A stretch of 64,000 bases of DNA, from NCBI GenBank assembly GCA_902604795.1, contig CACKZV010000005.1, positions 1-64,000 on the forward strand, given 5' to 3'. Source of the DNA: an uncultured Pelagibacteraceae bacterium. Its GTDB lineage: Bacteria; Pseudomonadota; Alphaproteobacteria; Pelagibacterales; Pelagibacteraceae. The notes under the pieces are model-generated. The model made no database searches, was not told the origin of the DNA, and saw only the letters and a list, made by a program, of their open reading frames with translations. Numbering within the stretch: position 1 is the first letter of the stretch; every line of letters begins with the position of its first letter. Shown here piece by piece: positions 31,221 through 37,001 of the stretch. A program made the translations under genes and the position numbers.

Positions 31221-31538
31221 ATGGCGACAGTAAAATCTACCGATGAGAGTTTTGATCAATTAGTTAAAGATAATAAGATATTAATTTGTGATTTTTGGGC
31301 AGAATGGTGCGGTCCATGCCACATGGTGGCTCCCAGCTTGGAAGAAATATCAAATGAGATGTCCGACCAATTATCTGTAGCAAAACATAACATTGATGAA
31401 GAGCCAAATACGCCAACTAAATATGGTGTTCGAGGAATCCCCACGATGATTTTGATGAAAGATGGAAATCATGTTTCAACTAAGGTTGGAGCGGTTCCAA
31501 AAAGTGAAATTGTTTCTTGGATAAAAGAAAATATCTAA
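31221..31538 (+). CDS. trxA: Thioredoxin
   Basis: One-hundred-five-residue disulfide reductase with active site WCGPC in DFWAEWCGPCHMVAP and the cis-Pro segment RGIPTMI. It serves ribonucleotide reductase, methionine sulfoxide reductase and other thiol systems. A TATATA element 8 bases before the ATG suggests a short leader. The 3' end overlaps convergent folC by 4 bases. In alphaproteobacteria trxA is often near folC/accD, as here. Confidence 0.96.
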   Translation: MATVKSTDESFDQLVKDNKILICDFWAEWCGPCHMVAPSLEEISNEMSDQLSVAKHNIDEEPNTPTKYGVRGIPTMILMKDGNHVSTKVGAVPKSEIVSWIKENI

Positions 31539-32800
31539 TTTAATCTTAAAATTTCTCCAGCAAGATATAGCGAACCTAAGCATAGTATAATAGTATTTTC
31601 ATTTTTTGATAAGGATTTTATACTTTCTTCAATACCATCAGAAAGTTTCAAATTTAATTTTAAATTATTTAGCTTTTTTCTAAAATCTTCCTTTGAAATT
31701 GCACCATCTTGATTAGGAATATCAATTAAAGTAATTGAATTTACAATATTTTCAAAAGCTTTTATAAATTCTGTATGTTCTTTATCTTTCATCATACCCA
31801 CGATTAGATTTACTTCTTCATTTTGATTTTTAATCCAATTAGCGATAGAAAAACTTGCACTAATGTTGTGACCACCATCAACTATAAGTTTATTATTTCC
31901 AACAATCTCTTTTAATTTTCCCGATTTTATCTCCTCAAGTCTTGCTTTTAATGAAATATTTTTGATACCCTTTGCAATATGTTCATCTTTAATATTAAAA
32001 ATCTTTCTTGATGCAGCAATTGAGGTACTAACATTATAAAGCTGATGATCTCCAAGAATACTTGGTTCAGGTAATACTAATTCTCCCAACTGATCTTGAT
32101 ATTGAATAAATCCATTCTCGGACTTTGCAATATTAAAATCTTTCCCAAAAAAATATTTATTTGATGTATTTTTTTCCAATGAACTTTCTATTTTATCTCT
32201 TATTTCATTATTTACTTGTTTATTAATAAATATATTTGAGTTTAAAAGCTTAACTGTCTTTTCATATATTACCCCTTCAATTGATTTATTTTCAAGCCAT
32301 TGAAAGTGGTCATTATGAATTACACCAATTAGAGTCATTAAATTTTCCTTAAATACATTTGTACTATCAAATTGATGAAATAATCCTGCTTCTATAATAT
32401 TAATATTATCTTTAAAATTTTCAGCATATTTTAAAAAAGCACAAGTTAATATTTCAAATAATGTTGCATTGTCATCTCCTAAAGTCTTTTCAACATCAGT
32501 CAGCAATTCTATTAAATCTTCTTCATTGATTTCTTTATCATCAACGACGTATCTTTCTGTGTAAGAGAGAAGGTGGGGCGAAGTGTAAAGATTAGTCTTG
32601 TATCCAGCTTCGTTAAGTATTGACTTAAAGCTAGAGCACATACTTGCTTTAGCATTAGTTCCAACAACTGTGATTACATTTTTTAACTTATCTTGTGGAT
32701 TACCAAGCTTTTTTAAAAGATTAAAAGTTCTTCCTAAAGATAAATCAAGTTTTTTTTTATGATGCTTCTCTAGTTTGGATATTAGTTTCTGAAGTTTCAT
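31535..32800 (-). CDS. folC: Folylpolyglutamate synthase / dihydrofolate synthase
   Basis: Mur-ligase-family enzyme of 421 residues adding glutamate to folates. The DGGHNISAS segment and overall layout fit FolC. The ATP-binding loop, normally GTNGKGS, reads GTNAKAS at residues 47-53, with alanine replacing both inner glycines; the essential Lys51 remains. The start at 32800 overlaps accD by 44 bases and is needed to include the conserved LDLSLGRT region. It follows accD as in other alphaproteobacteria. Confidence 0.9.
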   Translation of the reverse strand: MKLQKLISKLEKHHKKKLDLSLGRTFNLLKKLGNPQDKLKNVITVVGTNAKASMCSSFKSILNEAGYKTNLYTSPHLLSYTERYVVDDKEINEEDLIELLTDVEKTLGDDNATLFEILTCAFLKYAENFKDNINIIEAGLFHQFDSTNVFKENLMTLIGVIHNDHFQWLENKSIEGVIYEKTVKLLNSNIFINKQVNNEIRDKIESSLEKNTSNKYFFGKDFNIAKSENGFIQYQDQLGELVLPEPSILGDHQLYNVSTSIAASRKIFNIKDEHIAKGIKNISLKARLEEIKSGKLKEIVGNNKLIVDGGHNISASFSIANWIKNQNEEVNLIVGMMKDKEHTEFIKAFENIVNSITLIDIPNQDGAISKEDFRKKLNNLKLNLKLSDGIEESIKSLSKNENTIILCLGSLYLAGEILRLN

Positions 32801-33692
32801 TTAAACTTTCTGAATTTACTTCAGAATTCTTCTTTAGCAATATTTTTAATATTCCAATTATTTTTTCATTTATTTCTTTTCTGTTAAATACTCCATCACA
32901 CATACCTTTTTCAACCAAAACCTTGCTTGATTGAAAACCTTCTGGTAAATCTTCACGTGTCTGATTTTTTACTATATGTTGACCCGCAAAACCAACCATA
33001 GATGGTTCTGCAAAACAAATATCTGCTATAGATGGAGCGGCAAAACTTGCAGTTATACCTCCATAACATTTATTTGTGTAAATATTTATAAACGGTAATT
33101 TTGTAGAATCTTTAAATGTATTTGCTGCTAAAACAGTTTTTACCATAAAATGTAATGCTATGTTTGATTCTTGCATAGCCTGACCTCCACCTTCGCTCCA
33201 AGCTACAACAGGCGTAAGATCATCGATGGCTTTCTGAAAACAATACACTATTGCTTCACCAGCTGACGCATTTATAGAGCCACCATTAAAACGACTATCA
33301 ATTGCGAATGAGGTAACTTTAATTCCATCCTTTACACCTTGAGCAACCATTACAGCACAATGATGTCCTGTAATCTTTCTTCCTCGTTCAAGCTTTTCCT
33401 TATAACCAGGAAAATTTAATGGATTCTCCGCGAGTTCTGGTGTTTTAATTATCTCGTAATTATTTTTTCCAAAAAAATGATCAAACCTTTCTCTTGGTGT
33501 AAATGGATAATGTTTATTACAATTAGGACAGGTGTTGAGCTGTTCTTTATTAAATATTGTTGATTTTAATTGGGGTCCAGTCCCACAGCATGATATCCAT
33601 TTTGAATTAGCCTGCTCTTGCCTAGAAGGTCTTTTTTTAAGCACCTTCTTGATTTTCTCACCAAAATTTATAGCTTTTGTTAACCAATTCAT
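32757..33692 (-). CDS. accD: Acetyl-CoA carboxylase carboxyltransferase subunit beta
   Basis: Beta subunit of 311 residues that with AccA transfers carboxyl from biotin to acetyl-CoA. The crotonase core includes GGSINASAGEAIVY and VAWSEGGGQAMQE. The N-terminal zinc ribbon is atypical: instead of CxxC...CxxC the first pair is Cys35-Cys36 side by side (WISCCGTG), with the second pair Cys55/Cys58 (CPNC) normal. The C-terminal tail is Asn/Ser/Glu-rich. It lies after trpA with a 4-base overlap. Confidence 0.93.
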   Translation of the reverse strand: MNWLTKAINFGEKIKKVLKKRPSRQEQANSKWISCCGTGPQLKSTIFNKEQLNTCPNCNKHYPFTPRERFDHFFGKNNYEIIKTPELAENPLNFPGYKEKLERGRKITGHHCAVMVAQGVKDGIKVTSFAIDSRFNGGSINASAGEAIVYCFQKAIDDLTPVVAWSEGGGQAMQESNIALHFMVKTVLAANTFKDSTKLPFINIYTNKCYGGITASFAAPSIADICFAEPSMVGFAGQHIVKNQTREDLPEGFQSSKVLVEKGMCDGVFNRKEINEKIIGILKILLKKNSEVNSESLNETSETNIQTREAS

Positions 33693-34489
33693 GATATTTT
33701 TTTTCTAAGTTTACTAACCATCTTACTTACATTTATGACAGGATTTTGTCTATTGCTTAAACTTCTAGTAATTTCTTTACAAATTTGACTACCAACAACA
33801 AGTCCATCTGTATTTTTAAACTTTGATATAGTTTTTTCAGTAATACCAAAACCAATAACACAATTTTTTTTAGGACTTATTTTTTTAATTTTATTGTAAT
33901 TAGATAATATTTTTTTTGGTGAAACTTTTAGTTTTCCTCCTGTAGTAGACAGCATGCTTATATAGTAAATCATATCATGAGAGTCTTTTGTAATACTTTT
34001 TAGTCTTTTATTCGATGTTGTAGGAGATATTAATTGAATAAAATAAATTGAATTTTTTTTACATTTCTTTGAAAAAATTTTGTTTTCTGGCCATGGTAAA
34101 TCAACTACTATTAAACCATTAACACCTGATTTTTTACATTTTTTTAAAAAATTATTTTCACCATATTGGAAAATCATATTGTAGTAACCCATCAATATTA
34201 CTGGTTTTGAATTTTTACTTTTTTTAAAATCTCTTACAATTTTAAAAATATCATTCATCTTAATACCATTTTTAATTGCTCTATAAGCACTAGTTTGAAT
34301 TTGGCCTCCATCTGCTACTGGAGTGTTATGAGGTACACCAACTTCTAAAATATCAGCATAATTTGAAATTGCTTTTAAGACTTCTAAAGATTGTCTCTTT
34401 GAGCTATCACCAGCTACAGTATAAGTAAGTAAAGCTGGTCTTTTATCTTCTTTTGCTTTTTTAAATGCAAGGCTAATTGGATTTAACAT
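33689..34489 (-). CDS. trpA: Tryptophan synthase alpha subunit
   Basis: TIM-barrel subunit of 266 residues (ATG at 34489 chosen; it overlaps trpB by 17 bases, and the longer frame would overlap 71). It cleaves indole-3-glycerol phosphate to indole. Catalytic Glu49 (DILEVG) and Asp60 (VADGG) fall at the canonical numbers. The segment between them is HNTP instead of FSDP, so Asp56, which normally salt-bridges the beta subunit, is Thr. The phosphate and loop regions (VDLPWPE, STTGGK, GFGIT, VVGSQIC) are otherwise recognisable. Confidence 0.92.
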   Translation of the reverse strand: MLNPISLAFKKAKEDKRPALLTYTVAGDSSKRQSLEVLKAISNYADILEVGVPHNTPVADGGQIQTSAYRAIKNGIKMNDIFKIVRDFKKSKNSKPVILMGYYNMIFQYGENNFLKKCKKSGVNGLIVVDLPWPENKIFSKKCKKNSIYFIQLISPTTSNKRLKSITKDSHDMIYYISMLSTTGGKLKVSPKKILSNYNKIKKISPKKNCVIGFGITEKTISKFKNTDGLVVGSQICKEITRSLSNRQNPVINVSKMVSKLRKKIS

Positions 34490-35717
34490 ATTTCTTTCCC
34501 AATTTTTTTTCCAAAATTCCTCTGTCTTTATATGCATCTCCACAACTATTAATAATTACTATTGTGTTTTTGCTCAATTTTTTTGCTTCTTTAATCGCCA
34601 CTGAGAATGCATGACTCGGTTCGAGTGATGGTCTTAAATTTTCATATTTTGTAACTATTTGGTAAGCCTTTAATGCTTCCTCATCACTAGCTGCTGTATA
34701 TCTTGCCCGCTTGGCATCTTTTAAAAAGCAATGTAGCGGTGAAATCCCAGGATAATCAAGACCCGCAGATATTGATTCAGTTTCTTCAATCTGACCATCC
34801 CTATTCTGATTTACATATTGTGCTGCACCGTGAAGTATACCGATTTTTGAACCATAAGTTAAAGGAGCTGCATGTTTTTTACTTTTGGCTGGTCCTCCTG
34901 CCTCAACCCCAATAAACTCAACTTGTTTTTTATCATAATCCATAAATTCATTCCAAAAACCAAAACTTGAGGAACCTCCTCCTACACAATTATATAGTTT
35001 AAGTTTTTTAGGAACTTCACCAAATTCATTTATTAATTGAACTTTAAGCTCTCTAGATATTTGACTAGTACTCCATCCACATATTCTAACAAAAATTGCA
35101 GGTCCTACTGTACTACCAACACACATTGCTGTTGTATCACAATTAGCAACCCAATATCTCATACATTCAGAGACAGCATCTACTAGTGTTTGACTTCCTG
35201 AATATACAGGAATTACATCTGCACCATTTTTTTTCATTGCTTTAACATTTGGTTGTTGTCTTTTTATATCTTTTGCACCCATAAAAATTTTACATTCCAG
35301 ACCAAATTTTTTAGCCGCCATACTCAGCATCTTTCCAGCATAGCCAGCGCCTGTGTCACCAATAATGACTTTTTTTCCAGACCTTTTGGCTAATAAACAA
35401 TGTACAGTTGCATTATATATTTTATGAGCTCCTCCATTAGCATCAGAAACAACCTTAGACCAAATCTGCGCTCCACCAACATGTTTTGTTAAATTGTTTA
35501 ATTTAATAAATCTTGTAGGTGTTCCAATCCAATTTTTGAAATAAAAGTCTCTTTCTTTTATAAAGTTTTTGTCATTCTTTAATTTATTAAATTGTATTTC
35601 TAGGTCTTCTATCGGTTTTTTAAGAGTTTCAGGCACAAAATTTCCTCCAAATTTTCCACCCCAAAAACCAAGTCTATCTCCTTGATCTATAACTGGAATT
35701 CCTTTTTTAAGTTTCAT
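34473..35717 (-). CDS. trpB: Tryptophan synthase beta subunit (divergent)
   Basis: PLP enzyme of 414 residues from the ATG at 35717 (a TTG four codons earlier is less likely). It condenses indole with serine. The PLP lysine is Lys99 (GGAHK) and the phosphate loop is GGGSS (246-250). It departs from the canonical enzyme at several sites: the catalytic Glu109 position is Asp121 (GDTGAG), Gln114-His115 are Tyr-Ala, Lys167 is Val179, Ser377 appears as Cys392, and the REDL strand before the lysine is missing. Arg141 and Asp305 counterparts (Arg153, Asp321) are kept. It pairs with an equally unusual TrpA. Confidence 0.88.
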   Translation of the reverse strand: MKLKKGIPVIDQGDRLGFWGGKFGGNFVPETLKKPIEDLEIQFNKLKNDKNFIKERDFYFKNWIGTPTRFIKLNNLTKHVGGAQIWSKVVSDANGGAHKIYNATVHCLLAKRSGKKVIIGDTGAGYAGKMLSMAAKKFGLECKIFMGAKDIKRQQPNVKAMKKNGADVIPVYSGSQTLVDAVSECMRYWVANCDTTAMCVGSTVGPAIFVRICGWSTSQISRELKVQLINEFGEVPKKLKLYNCVGGGSSSFGFWNEFMDYDKKQVEFIGVEAGGPAKSKKHAAPLTYGSKIGILHGAAQYVNQNRDGQIEETESISAGLDYPGISPLHCFLKDAKRARYTAASDEEALKAYQIVTKYENLRPSLEPSHAFSVAIKEAKKLSKNTIVIINSCGDAYKDRGILEKKLGKKYVKSN

Positions 35718-36330
35718 TTTTAGTTGCAAAATTTAATAATTTATTAATTTTTTTTAAATCTTTTTTACCTTCCTCATTTTCTAGTGCACCACTTAGATCA
35801 AAAAAGATGTCTTTATTTTTAAATTTAGCAATATCCTCTATTTTTATATTTCCAGCAATCATTTTATTTACTGAATTAGGTACTGAATTTAATAACTCAT
35901 GATCAAATCCAACTGATTTTTCGTAACCCTTTCCATCAAATAAAATTATATCTGCAATTCCTAAATAACTTATATATTTATTTACATCTATTTGATTTTT
36001 AATTGTAAGCGCTGTAATAATTTTAACTTTAAATTTATCTTTTATTTTTTTTGTTCTTTTAGGATCTACATCATATAGTTGAAAAAAATCGAAGTTTAGA
36101 TCGTTCATTTGTGCCAAGATTTTATCAGTTGGATCAACAAGAACAGAAACAAAATTAGTTTTTTTTTTTTTAATATTTATTAAATTTTTTAATTTATTAA
36201 AATCAACAAATCTTTTACTTTTTTTATAGTTGCAGATAAAACCAATAAATTTTGGTGGATGTCGATGATTTAAGATATATCTTAACGTATCAAGATCAGA
36301 GATCCCACAAATTTTAATTCCCTTTACCAT
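35707..36330 (-). CDS. trpF: Phosphoribosylanthranilate isomerase
   Basis: TIM-barrel isomerase of 207 residues (ATG at 36330, overlapping the pyrF stop as TGATG; a TTG one codon earlier is an alternative). The catalytic Cys in VKICGIS-like IKICGIS and the general acid Asp in ILFDGKG are present. The usual QLHG is QLYD and the last loops are shortened, so it is a divergent TrpF. It precedes trpB with an 11-base overlap. Confidence 0.88.
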   Translation of the reverse strand: MVKGIKICGISDLDTLRYILNHRHPPKFIGFICNYKKSKRFVDFNKLKNLINIKKKKTNFVSVLVDPTDKILAQMNDLNFDFFQLYDVDPKRTKKIKDKFKVKIITALTIKNQIDVNKYISYLGIADIILFDGKGYEKSVGFDHELLNSVPNSVNKMIAGNIKIEDIAKFKNKDIFFDLSGALENEEGKKDLKKINKLLNFATKNET

Positions 36331-37001
36331 CAATCTAAATGATTGATTAATTTTTTTAGATTATTTGAAATATTTCCTTTTGTTATTGGTCTTCCAATCA
36401 CTAACCAATCACTTCCATTTTTGTATGCTTGTTTAGGAGTTAAAACTCTTTTTTGGTCATTTTTTTTACTATTAATTCTTATCCCAGGGGTAATAATTTC
36501 TTTTTTAAATACTTTTTTTACAATATTTACTTCTTTAGCACTACAAACTATAGCGTCTAATTTTGCTTTTCTAGCTAACTGAGCTTGATGTAGTACTATT
36601 CTTTTTAATTTCTTATTATATCCAATTTCTTTTAAAGATTTATTATCTAAAGAAGTTAGTACTGTCACACCAATTAATTTTGTTTTTCCTGAAACTTTTT
36701 TTGCTGCCCTCAATGCTTCTAAGCCAGAATTTATATGAATTGTTATATAATTAAAATTTAAATCTTTAACAGCCCTGATGGCAGATGCACAAGTATTTGG
36801 AATATCTGAAAATTTATAATCCCCAAATGTAATTTTATTTTTTAATTTTGAAATATAATTTCTGCCATCTTTCGAATTTAGAAATTCTAATCCAAATTTA
36901 TAACCAATTTTTAGTTTTGAGTTTTTTGTCTGTTGAATTATTTTTTTTATTTTAATAATATCTCTACTATCACATGCAATAAATAATTTATTTTTTTTCA
37001 T
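36330..37001 (-). CDS. pyrF: Orotidine 5'-phosphate decarboxylase
   Basis: Pyrimidine synthesis enzyme, 223 residues. The catalytic Asp-Lys-x-x-Asp array appears as FGDYKFSDIPNT near residue 60, and the phosphate end as PGIR...GSDWLVIGRPIT. It overlaps the end of ihfB by 14 bases and trpF by one base, placing UMP and tryptophan genes in one run. Confidence 0.95.
   Translation of the reverse strand: MKKNKLFIACDSRDIIKIKKIIQQTKNSKLKIGYKFGLEFLNSKDGRNYISKLKNKITFGDYKFSDIPNTCASAIRAVKDLNFNYITIHINSGLEALRAAKKVSGKTKLIGVTVLTSLDNKSLKEIGYNKKLKRIVLHQAQLARKAKLDAIVCSAKEVNIVKKVFKKEIITPGIRINSKKNDQKRVLTPKQAYKNGSDWLVIGRPITKGNISNNLKKLINHLD

Follow-up and report, generated by a model that had tools for sequence, protein, structure and literature searches.

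Channelling and allostery are classically illustrated by tryptophan synthase. The 64,000-nucleotide stretch of DNA analysed here (the window: positions 1 to 64,000 of contig CACKZV010000005.1, assembly GCA_902604795.1, from an uncultured Pelagibacteraceae bacterium) encodes a divergent form of both subunits of this enzyme, TrpA (alpha) and TrpB (beta). A group of this kind has been described before: in the portion of their text available to us, Kagan et al. (2008; PMC2395257) report a SAR11-like trpB cluster, a separate, early-branching branch of trpB1 that includes P. ubique HTCC1062 and Sargasso Sea sequences, so that the existence of the clade is already known. That portion contains no residue-level analysis, no analysis of TrpA and none of other kinds of enzyme at the locus. 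From P. ubique, the gene order and one of the genomes in our sample (G011), we infer that the cluster is the group denoted here type 2. Among the papers listed by a literature search to which most subscription papers were closed, none gave an account of these active-site changes in SAR11.

With the well-studied enzyme of Salmonella and E. coli, the type-2 pair shares the fold, the lysine that binds pyridoxal 5'-phosphate (PLP), the TGAG loop, R141, D305 and E350 in the beta subunit, and E49, D60 and T183 in the alpha subunit, but it differs by E109D, Q114Y, H115A, R148A, K167V, Y186M, N236S and R379D in TrpB and by D56T, G181S and E134P in TrpA. Two stand-alone beta subunits, the ancestral LBCA TrpB and the plTrpB of Pelodictyon luteolum, share Thr53, Ser187 and Ala279 with type 2 (PMC11917138, available portion) but differ from it at positions 36, 42 and 280 and in having Glu at 109 (E104 in plTrpB). 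TrpB2 (TIGR01415) has the same PLP fold type and is a distant homolog; the window gene is instead paired with trpA.

The analysis shows that the type-2 enzyme is a genuine variant of the known one, both widespread and strongly conserved, and that in most sampled SAR11 the tryptophan synthase has lost several residues, a key catalytic one among them, that do not vary in the ordinary relatives compared. Positions follow TrpA and TrpB of E. coli K-12, taken from the annotated genome as the reference row EC, a numbering that we take to equal that of Salmonella. Residue counts are based on 126 aligned type-2 TrpB rows, 113 of which differ over E. coli positions 20-250 (some genomes came in via two collections), and on 123 type-2 TrpA rows. 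'Canonical' denotes the 50 TrpB rows, mostly from Alphaproteobacteria, outside type 2 and the SAR11 types 3 and 3b described below. Left out of the counts were four more type-2 loci of G003, G005, G007 and G001 (L176-L179, three of them repeats), the window gene when encountered again (L001, L082), the TrpB2 row L199, the E. coli locus (reference only) and, for TrpA, the short rows L030, L158 and L132.

All 50 canonical beta subunits have Glu109, Gln114, His115 and Asn236, and none of these residues is present in type 2 (Table 1); altogether, of the 68 TrpB positions without variation across the canonical rows, 24 carry another residue in over 90% of type 2. In the carboxylate loop TGAGQH, the segment T110-G111-A112-G113 is kept in 126/126 and the last two residues are replaced; in the phosphate loop GGGSN, GGGS is kept and only the final Asn gives way, to Ser. 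Furthermore, Y186 is Met or Leu in 126/126 rows and R379 is Asp in 122/126, whereas the PLP lysine, the TGAG loop, R141, R175, D305 and E350 are fixed. A first-pass annotation of this DNA had already pointed to Asp at Glu109, Tyr-Ala at Gln114-His115, Val179 (counted from the ATG start) at the Lys167 position, a rebuilt stretch before the PLP lysine, which we read as R77V, L80D and H82N, and retained equivalents of Arg141 and Asp305, and all of these hold in the alignment. Its listing of Cys at Ser377 was an over-reading: the Cys is there, but it is not distinctive, being the common residue in canonical rows as well. The replacements N236S, R148A, Y186M/L and R379D in TrpB and G181S in TrpA had been missed.

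Several of these positions have assigned roles. In the sources as available to us, beta-Glu109 stabilises the charge on indole N1; on closure of the enzyme, Gln114 is hydrogen-bonded to Asn145 and to Arg148, and the Q114A mutant has a destabilised closed state (PMC9512447); and Asn236, if the offset from FtTrpB numbering is applied, anchors the PLP phosphate (PMC6608616). Two more of the replaced residues, H115 and Y186, lie in or near the indole pocket, and the E109D mutant of Salmonella TrpB is reported to keep part of its activity.

In TrpA, the catalytic residues E49 and D60 are present in 123/123 rows, as the first-pass annotation had it for the window, and at 6 of the 24 positions invariant in canonical rows over 90% of type 2 have a different residue. 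The motif FSDP has become HNTP, also as first noted, and therefore alpha56 is Thr. In the Salmonella enzyme, alpha-Asp56 contacts beta-Lys167. This pair is neutral/Val in all 123 type-2 loci in which both genes were read and acid/Lys in the other 52/52, and two further canonical TrpBs with Ala at 167 have no TrpA in the locus. The earlier suggestion that the two partners changed together is thus borne out insofar as both sides have changed, in one or two evolutionary events, too few for covariation statistics. A single origin of type 2 and the Thr/Leu type 4 (see below) is neither rejected nor demonstrated by the approximately unbiased (AU) test (p 0.91 for TrpB, 0.74 for TrpA). Alpha-Gly181, replaced as well, is part of an allosteric contact according to the available part of the literature.

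Table 1. Genes of the tryptophan synthase locus and codons discussed in the text, with positions in the window
Feature	Position	Strand	Details
trpB	34473..35717	-	414 aa, ATG 35717 to stop 34473; SAR11-type (type 2) beta subunit
trpA	33689..34489	-	266 aa, ATG 34489 to stop 33689; alpha subunit
trpF (context)	35707..36333	-	open reading frame and profile match
pyrF (context)	36330..37001	-	open reading frame and profile match
accD (context, divergent form)	32757..33692	-	TIGR00515, 178.4 bits; cut-off 317.45
folC (context)	31535..32800	-	open reading frame and profile match
beta-Lys87 equivalent (PLP lysine), kept	35421..35423	-	K in 126/126 type-2 rows
beta109 Glu to Asp	35355..35357	-	D 126/126 type 2; E 50/50 canonical
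beta114-115 Gln-His to Tyr-Ala	35337..35342	-	Y 122, M 4; A 121, F 3, N 2 (n=126)
beta148 Arg to Ala	35238..35240	-	A 120/126; canonical R/K 50/50
beta167 Lys to Val	35181..35183	-	V 126/126; canonical K 48, A 2 (n=50)
beta236 Asn to Ser	34968..34970	-	S 126/126; canonical N 50/50
beta377 Cys, ordinary	34542..34544	-	C in 34/50 canonical rows
alpha56 Asp to Thr (HNTP motif)	34322..34324	-	T 116, C 4, A 3 (n=123)
alpha181 Gly to Ser, loop 6	33947..33949	-	S 120, N 3 (n=123)

The replaced residues are conserved across a single clade rather than scattered at random. In maximum-likelihood trees, obtained by quick searches, type 2 is one clade both for TrpB (16 of 52 rows, stem of 1.06 changes per site) and for TrpA (14 of 43 rows, stem of 1.14), each with a value of 100 in the Shimodaira-Hasegawa-like approximate likelihood ratio test. 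Type-2 trpB-trpA is under strong purifying selection: the median ratio of nonsynonymous to synonymous changes (dN/dS) against the window is 0.038 for TrpB (51 of 125 pairs usable, 74 being dS-saturated) and 0.138 for TrpA (111 of 122 pairs usable). Together with the conserved residues and the lack of a second TrpB1 (below), these results uphold the first-pass view of a distinct TrpAB subfamily as opposed to decay; a pseudogene reading was rejected on the intact frames and these ratios.

Among 297 sampled Pelagibacterales genomes, 258 match the window TrpB at E <= 4.5e-102 (type 2 being assigned here by E-value, with residues read in the aligned rows alone), compared with 0 of 380 genomes sampled from the other orders of Alphaproteobacteria. 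The 39 Pelagibacterales left comprise 7 genomes with type 3, 3 with type 4, 3 with type 3b, 3 with a canonical enzyme, 9 with weak hits only and 14 with no hit. In 385 genomes of the class, a score above 340 bits was reached in 5, all of the window's family, the next score being 334.4, and a scan of 398 genomes of the phylum for codons spelling exactly DTGAGYAG gave two genomes, both from SAR11; these class and phylum scans gave no sign of type 2 outside SAR11 in the genomes covered. Mobile copies were likewise rejected, 20 phage and 127 plasmid records all showing less than 60% identity. The DTGAGYAG pattern turned up in six viral contigs; in the two examined, the protein containing it is not TrpB but, in one, a short unnamed protein and, in the other, a protein of collagen-like repeats. 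True loss of trpBA was considered for 12 of the 23 SAR11 genomes without a TrpB hit: accD is also missing in 8, and in the other 4 the stretch ends at or just past accD or inside trpA, so that assembly gaps are the simplest reading.

So is this pair the tryptophan synthase of the cell? The window genome (SAR11, 1.07 Mb, about 80% complete) contains no second TrpB1, and neither do seven type-2 genomes that are 99-100% complete (G001, G003, G005, G009, G013, G020 and G158), in which the next match to TIGR00263 scores at most 40.2 bits; hence, the second canonical trpB that would have weakened the subfamily interpretation was not found in these eight. Both trpC and trpD score above cut-off in the window genome and in all seven, and the window genome also encodes the TrpE N-domain, away from the locus like its trpC and trpD. 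Elsewhere among type-2 relatives, trpC of G158 (G158:C1:930231-930997) is read in two overlapping frames, a frameshift or a sequencing error, and P0241 is a TrpF-TrpB fusion protein of 607 aa with a type-2 TrpB part. In five of the 43 SAR11 genomes examined (G202, G283, G171, G221, G018), an additional gene is a candidate for TrpB2, as judged from scores of 140-152 bits to TIGR00263 and frames of 454-475 aa. The medium described for strains HTCC1062 and HTCC7211 is artificial seawater supplemented with pyruvate, glycine, methionine and vitamins; tryptophan is not among the ingredients listed in the available description (PMC8437039), so it is most likely made in the cell. The single trpB of P. 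ubique was judged functional in the accessible part of the earlier report (Kagan et al., 2008; PMC2395257).

The genes of the locus lie on the minus strand in the order pyrF, trpF, trpB, trpA, accD, folC. Re-reading of the open reading frames confirmed the span 33689..35717 originally given for trpB and trpA, which overlap by 17 bp; the trpB start is the first ATG, codon 5 of a 418-aa frame that opens with TTG, and 266 aa is the length of most TrpA homologs listed. TrpA scores 201.6 bits against TIGR00262, above the cut-off of 102.35, and TrpB scores 97.8 bits against the TrpB2 profile, far under the cut-off of 518.85. The best sequence match of TrpB in the PDB is the LBCA TrpB chain 5ey5 (340.6 bits). 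An AlphaFold2 model built from an alignment of 26 close relatives has a mean predicted local distance difference test score (pLDDT) of 71.6, with residues 1-28 and 280-335 below 50; it is mediocre and was consulted for the fold alone, for which the best PDB match is PfTrpB.

In other SAR11 genomes, the same slot between trpF and accD holds other deep TrpAB kinds. In type 3 (L118, L120, L121, L129, L130, L131 and L133, from seven Pelagibacter genomes), TrpB reads ESGAGQ, has a 3-aa deletion before beta165 and has D305 replaced, and TrpA has Glu at 56 and, in 7/7 compared with 3/42 canonical TrpAs, Glu at the catalytic position 60. Type 3b (L115, L116 and L117, family f2), which groups with type 3, has ETGAGAH and Leu at R141 in TrpB and Glu at alpha56. 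Type 4 (L202, L203, L204), whose loci also contain pyrF, trpF and accD, has ETGASM, alpha56 Thr and beta167 Leu, with a TrpB stem of 2.3 changes per site. Each kind is a clade in both the TrpB and the TrpA tree, and no mixed pair, with TrpA of one kind and TrpB of another, occurs among the rows on both trees. In the pyrF tree (36 rows), by contrast, the kinds are scattered: type 2 needs 11 changes against a shuffled mean of 11.3, a single clade is rejected for types 3 and 3b together (p 2.7e-5) and for type 2 (p 7.9e-4), and G011 and G013, both type 2, pair with G024 and G228, respectively, both type 3, each pair being starred. This mismatch with the pyrF tree suggests that trpBA is exchanged between genomes as a cassette. 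The picture from trpF (26 rows) is less clear, the kinds clustering above chance (type 2 needs 3 changes against a shuffled mean of 8.2), with one clade for type 3 rejected at p 0.024. The evidence for cassette exchange is strong but not final, since the trees would also be blurred if pyrF or trpF had themselves recombined.

The neighbouring accD comes in two forms among the window and its closest relatives, 41 in all (L002-L039, L048, L049, L079): 7 have the window's form and 34 the other, proteins of the respective forms being at least 94% and at least 89% alike among themselves and about 51% alike between the forms. At its two ends, however, the protein hardly differs between the forms (window against L002, by eye), so the gene is a mosaic. 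Beyond folC, a thioredoxin gene (31221-31538; L002-L081) is about 90-100% identical in most relatives and about 62% in others whose trpB is still at least 93% identical. A bolder proposal, which we consider doubtful, is that trpBA(-accD) is an allele-swap island in which at least four divergent TrpABs, one of them a largely uncoupled Asp109 enzyme, would pass as whole trpB-trpA cassettes from one close relative to another. Diversifying selection, such as escape from inhibitors or toxins aimed at these enzymes, would keep the kinds distinct.

How might the type-2 enzyme work? It probably serves as the tryptophan synthase of the cell, with Asp109 in place of Glu109 and with weakened or rerouted coupling; the latter part is the weaker half of this interpretation, the sequence suggesting it and making altered alpha-beta coupling plausible. 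Under this scenario, TrpA, in which E49, D60 and T183 are kept, would cleave indole-glycerol phosphate, and the indole would pass to a beta site that retains the PLP lysine, the TGAG loop, R141, D305 and E350 and in which Asp109 may take over the stabilisation of indole N1 from Glu109. Gln114 and Arg148 may have been given up together, and the alpha56/beta167 charge pair would have become Thr/Val. Small neutral residues (T56/V167, A282/A283) would thereby stand where the Asp56-Lys167 contact and the hydrogen bonds of Gln114 with Asn145 and Arg148 used to be. The prediction is that the subunits activate each other less strongly, or do so via other contacts, and that TrpB leans to stand-alone activity. 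Six residues (LBCA-Res6: E36, E42, T53, S187, A279 and M280) mark stand-alone TrpBs in the available part of the source (PMC11917138). The window has N, D, T, S, A and A, that is, three of the six; T53 is found in 126 type-2 rows compared with 6 of the 50 canonical ones, S187 in 126 compared with 9 and A279 in 125 compared with 3, and position 280 is Ala in 122/126 type-2 rows and Arg or Lys in 47/50 canonical rows.

Several observations weigh against this interpretation. The window TrpB scores 382.5 bits against TIGR00263, about 10 below the cut-off of 392.45, a threshold that six type-2 relatives pass (L119 402.3, L122 395.8, L123 395.0, L124 395.0, L125 394.8, L126 393.4). The G011 enzyme is type 2, but that this genome is HTCC1062 is an assumption. 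Of the stand-alone marks, E36 and E42 are clearly absent and position 280 is not Met, and type 3 has Ser187 (7/7) yet acid/Lys at 56/167. Changes of alpha-Asp56 in Salmonella reduce TrpA activity in the complex (PMC6608616, available portion). Finally, every type-2 row retains the closure residues R141, D305 and alpha-T183, and 120/123 retain alpha-P57, so closure and coupling could be intact. These retained residues, with beta R175 likewise fixed, fit the strongest alternative, namely, that it is the same enzyme with compensating interface changes, in which TrpA still strongly activates TrpB; the lack of mixed-kind pairs is also what a tightly matched complex predicts. The loss of the Gln114-Arg148 partnership and the shift to three of the six stand-alone residues speak against it, and we consider this alternative possible but clearly less probable than weakened or rerouted coupling.

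It seems unlikely that the replacements reflect drift, in the sense of a largely non-functional burst of changes long ago, in a streamlined lineage. The single long stem of type 2, the long stems of the other SAR11 TrpAB kinds and the divergent AccD at the locus are compatible with such a burst, but the 24 changed positions subsequently became nearly fixed, at the low dN/dS of TrpB, and the changes hit catalytic, cofactor and interface residues. Still more improbable is a beta site turned to another nucleophile or amino-acid donor, such as O-phosphoserine, O-acetylserine or another indole. Changes do lie in or near the indole pocket (E109D, H115A and Y186M). SAR11 also needs glycine (PMC8437039, available portion), so that serine supply may be unusual. 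However, the TGAG loop, D305 and E350 are kept, the adjacent TrpA keeps its catalytic residues, the near-complete genomes examined encode trpC and trpD and have this TrpB1 alone, and cultured strains grow without added tryptophan; the altered substrate use proposed in the first-pass annotation thus finds no support. That the pair is decaying or inactive, with a normal TrpAB elsewhere, is scarcely credible, for although the window genome is only about 80% complete, the frames are intact, dN/dS is far below 1, each near-complete genome examined has one TrpB1, and cultured strains do without added tryptophan.

Thus, a widespread natural variant of tryptophan synthase exists that does without four beta residues found in all canonical rows compared, and some strains of the group that carries it have been cultured with no tryptophan added. 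Type 2 is a test of which allosteric parts are needed, and a new starting scaffold for TrpB biocatalysis. The several TrpAB kinds at one locus, in turn, illustrate how a core enzyme can be replaced between marine bacteria that are close relatives.

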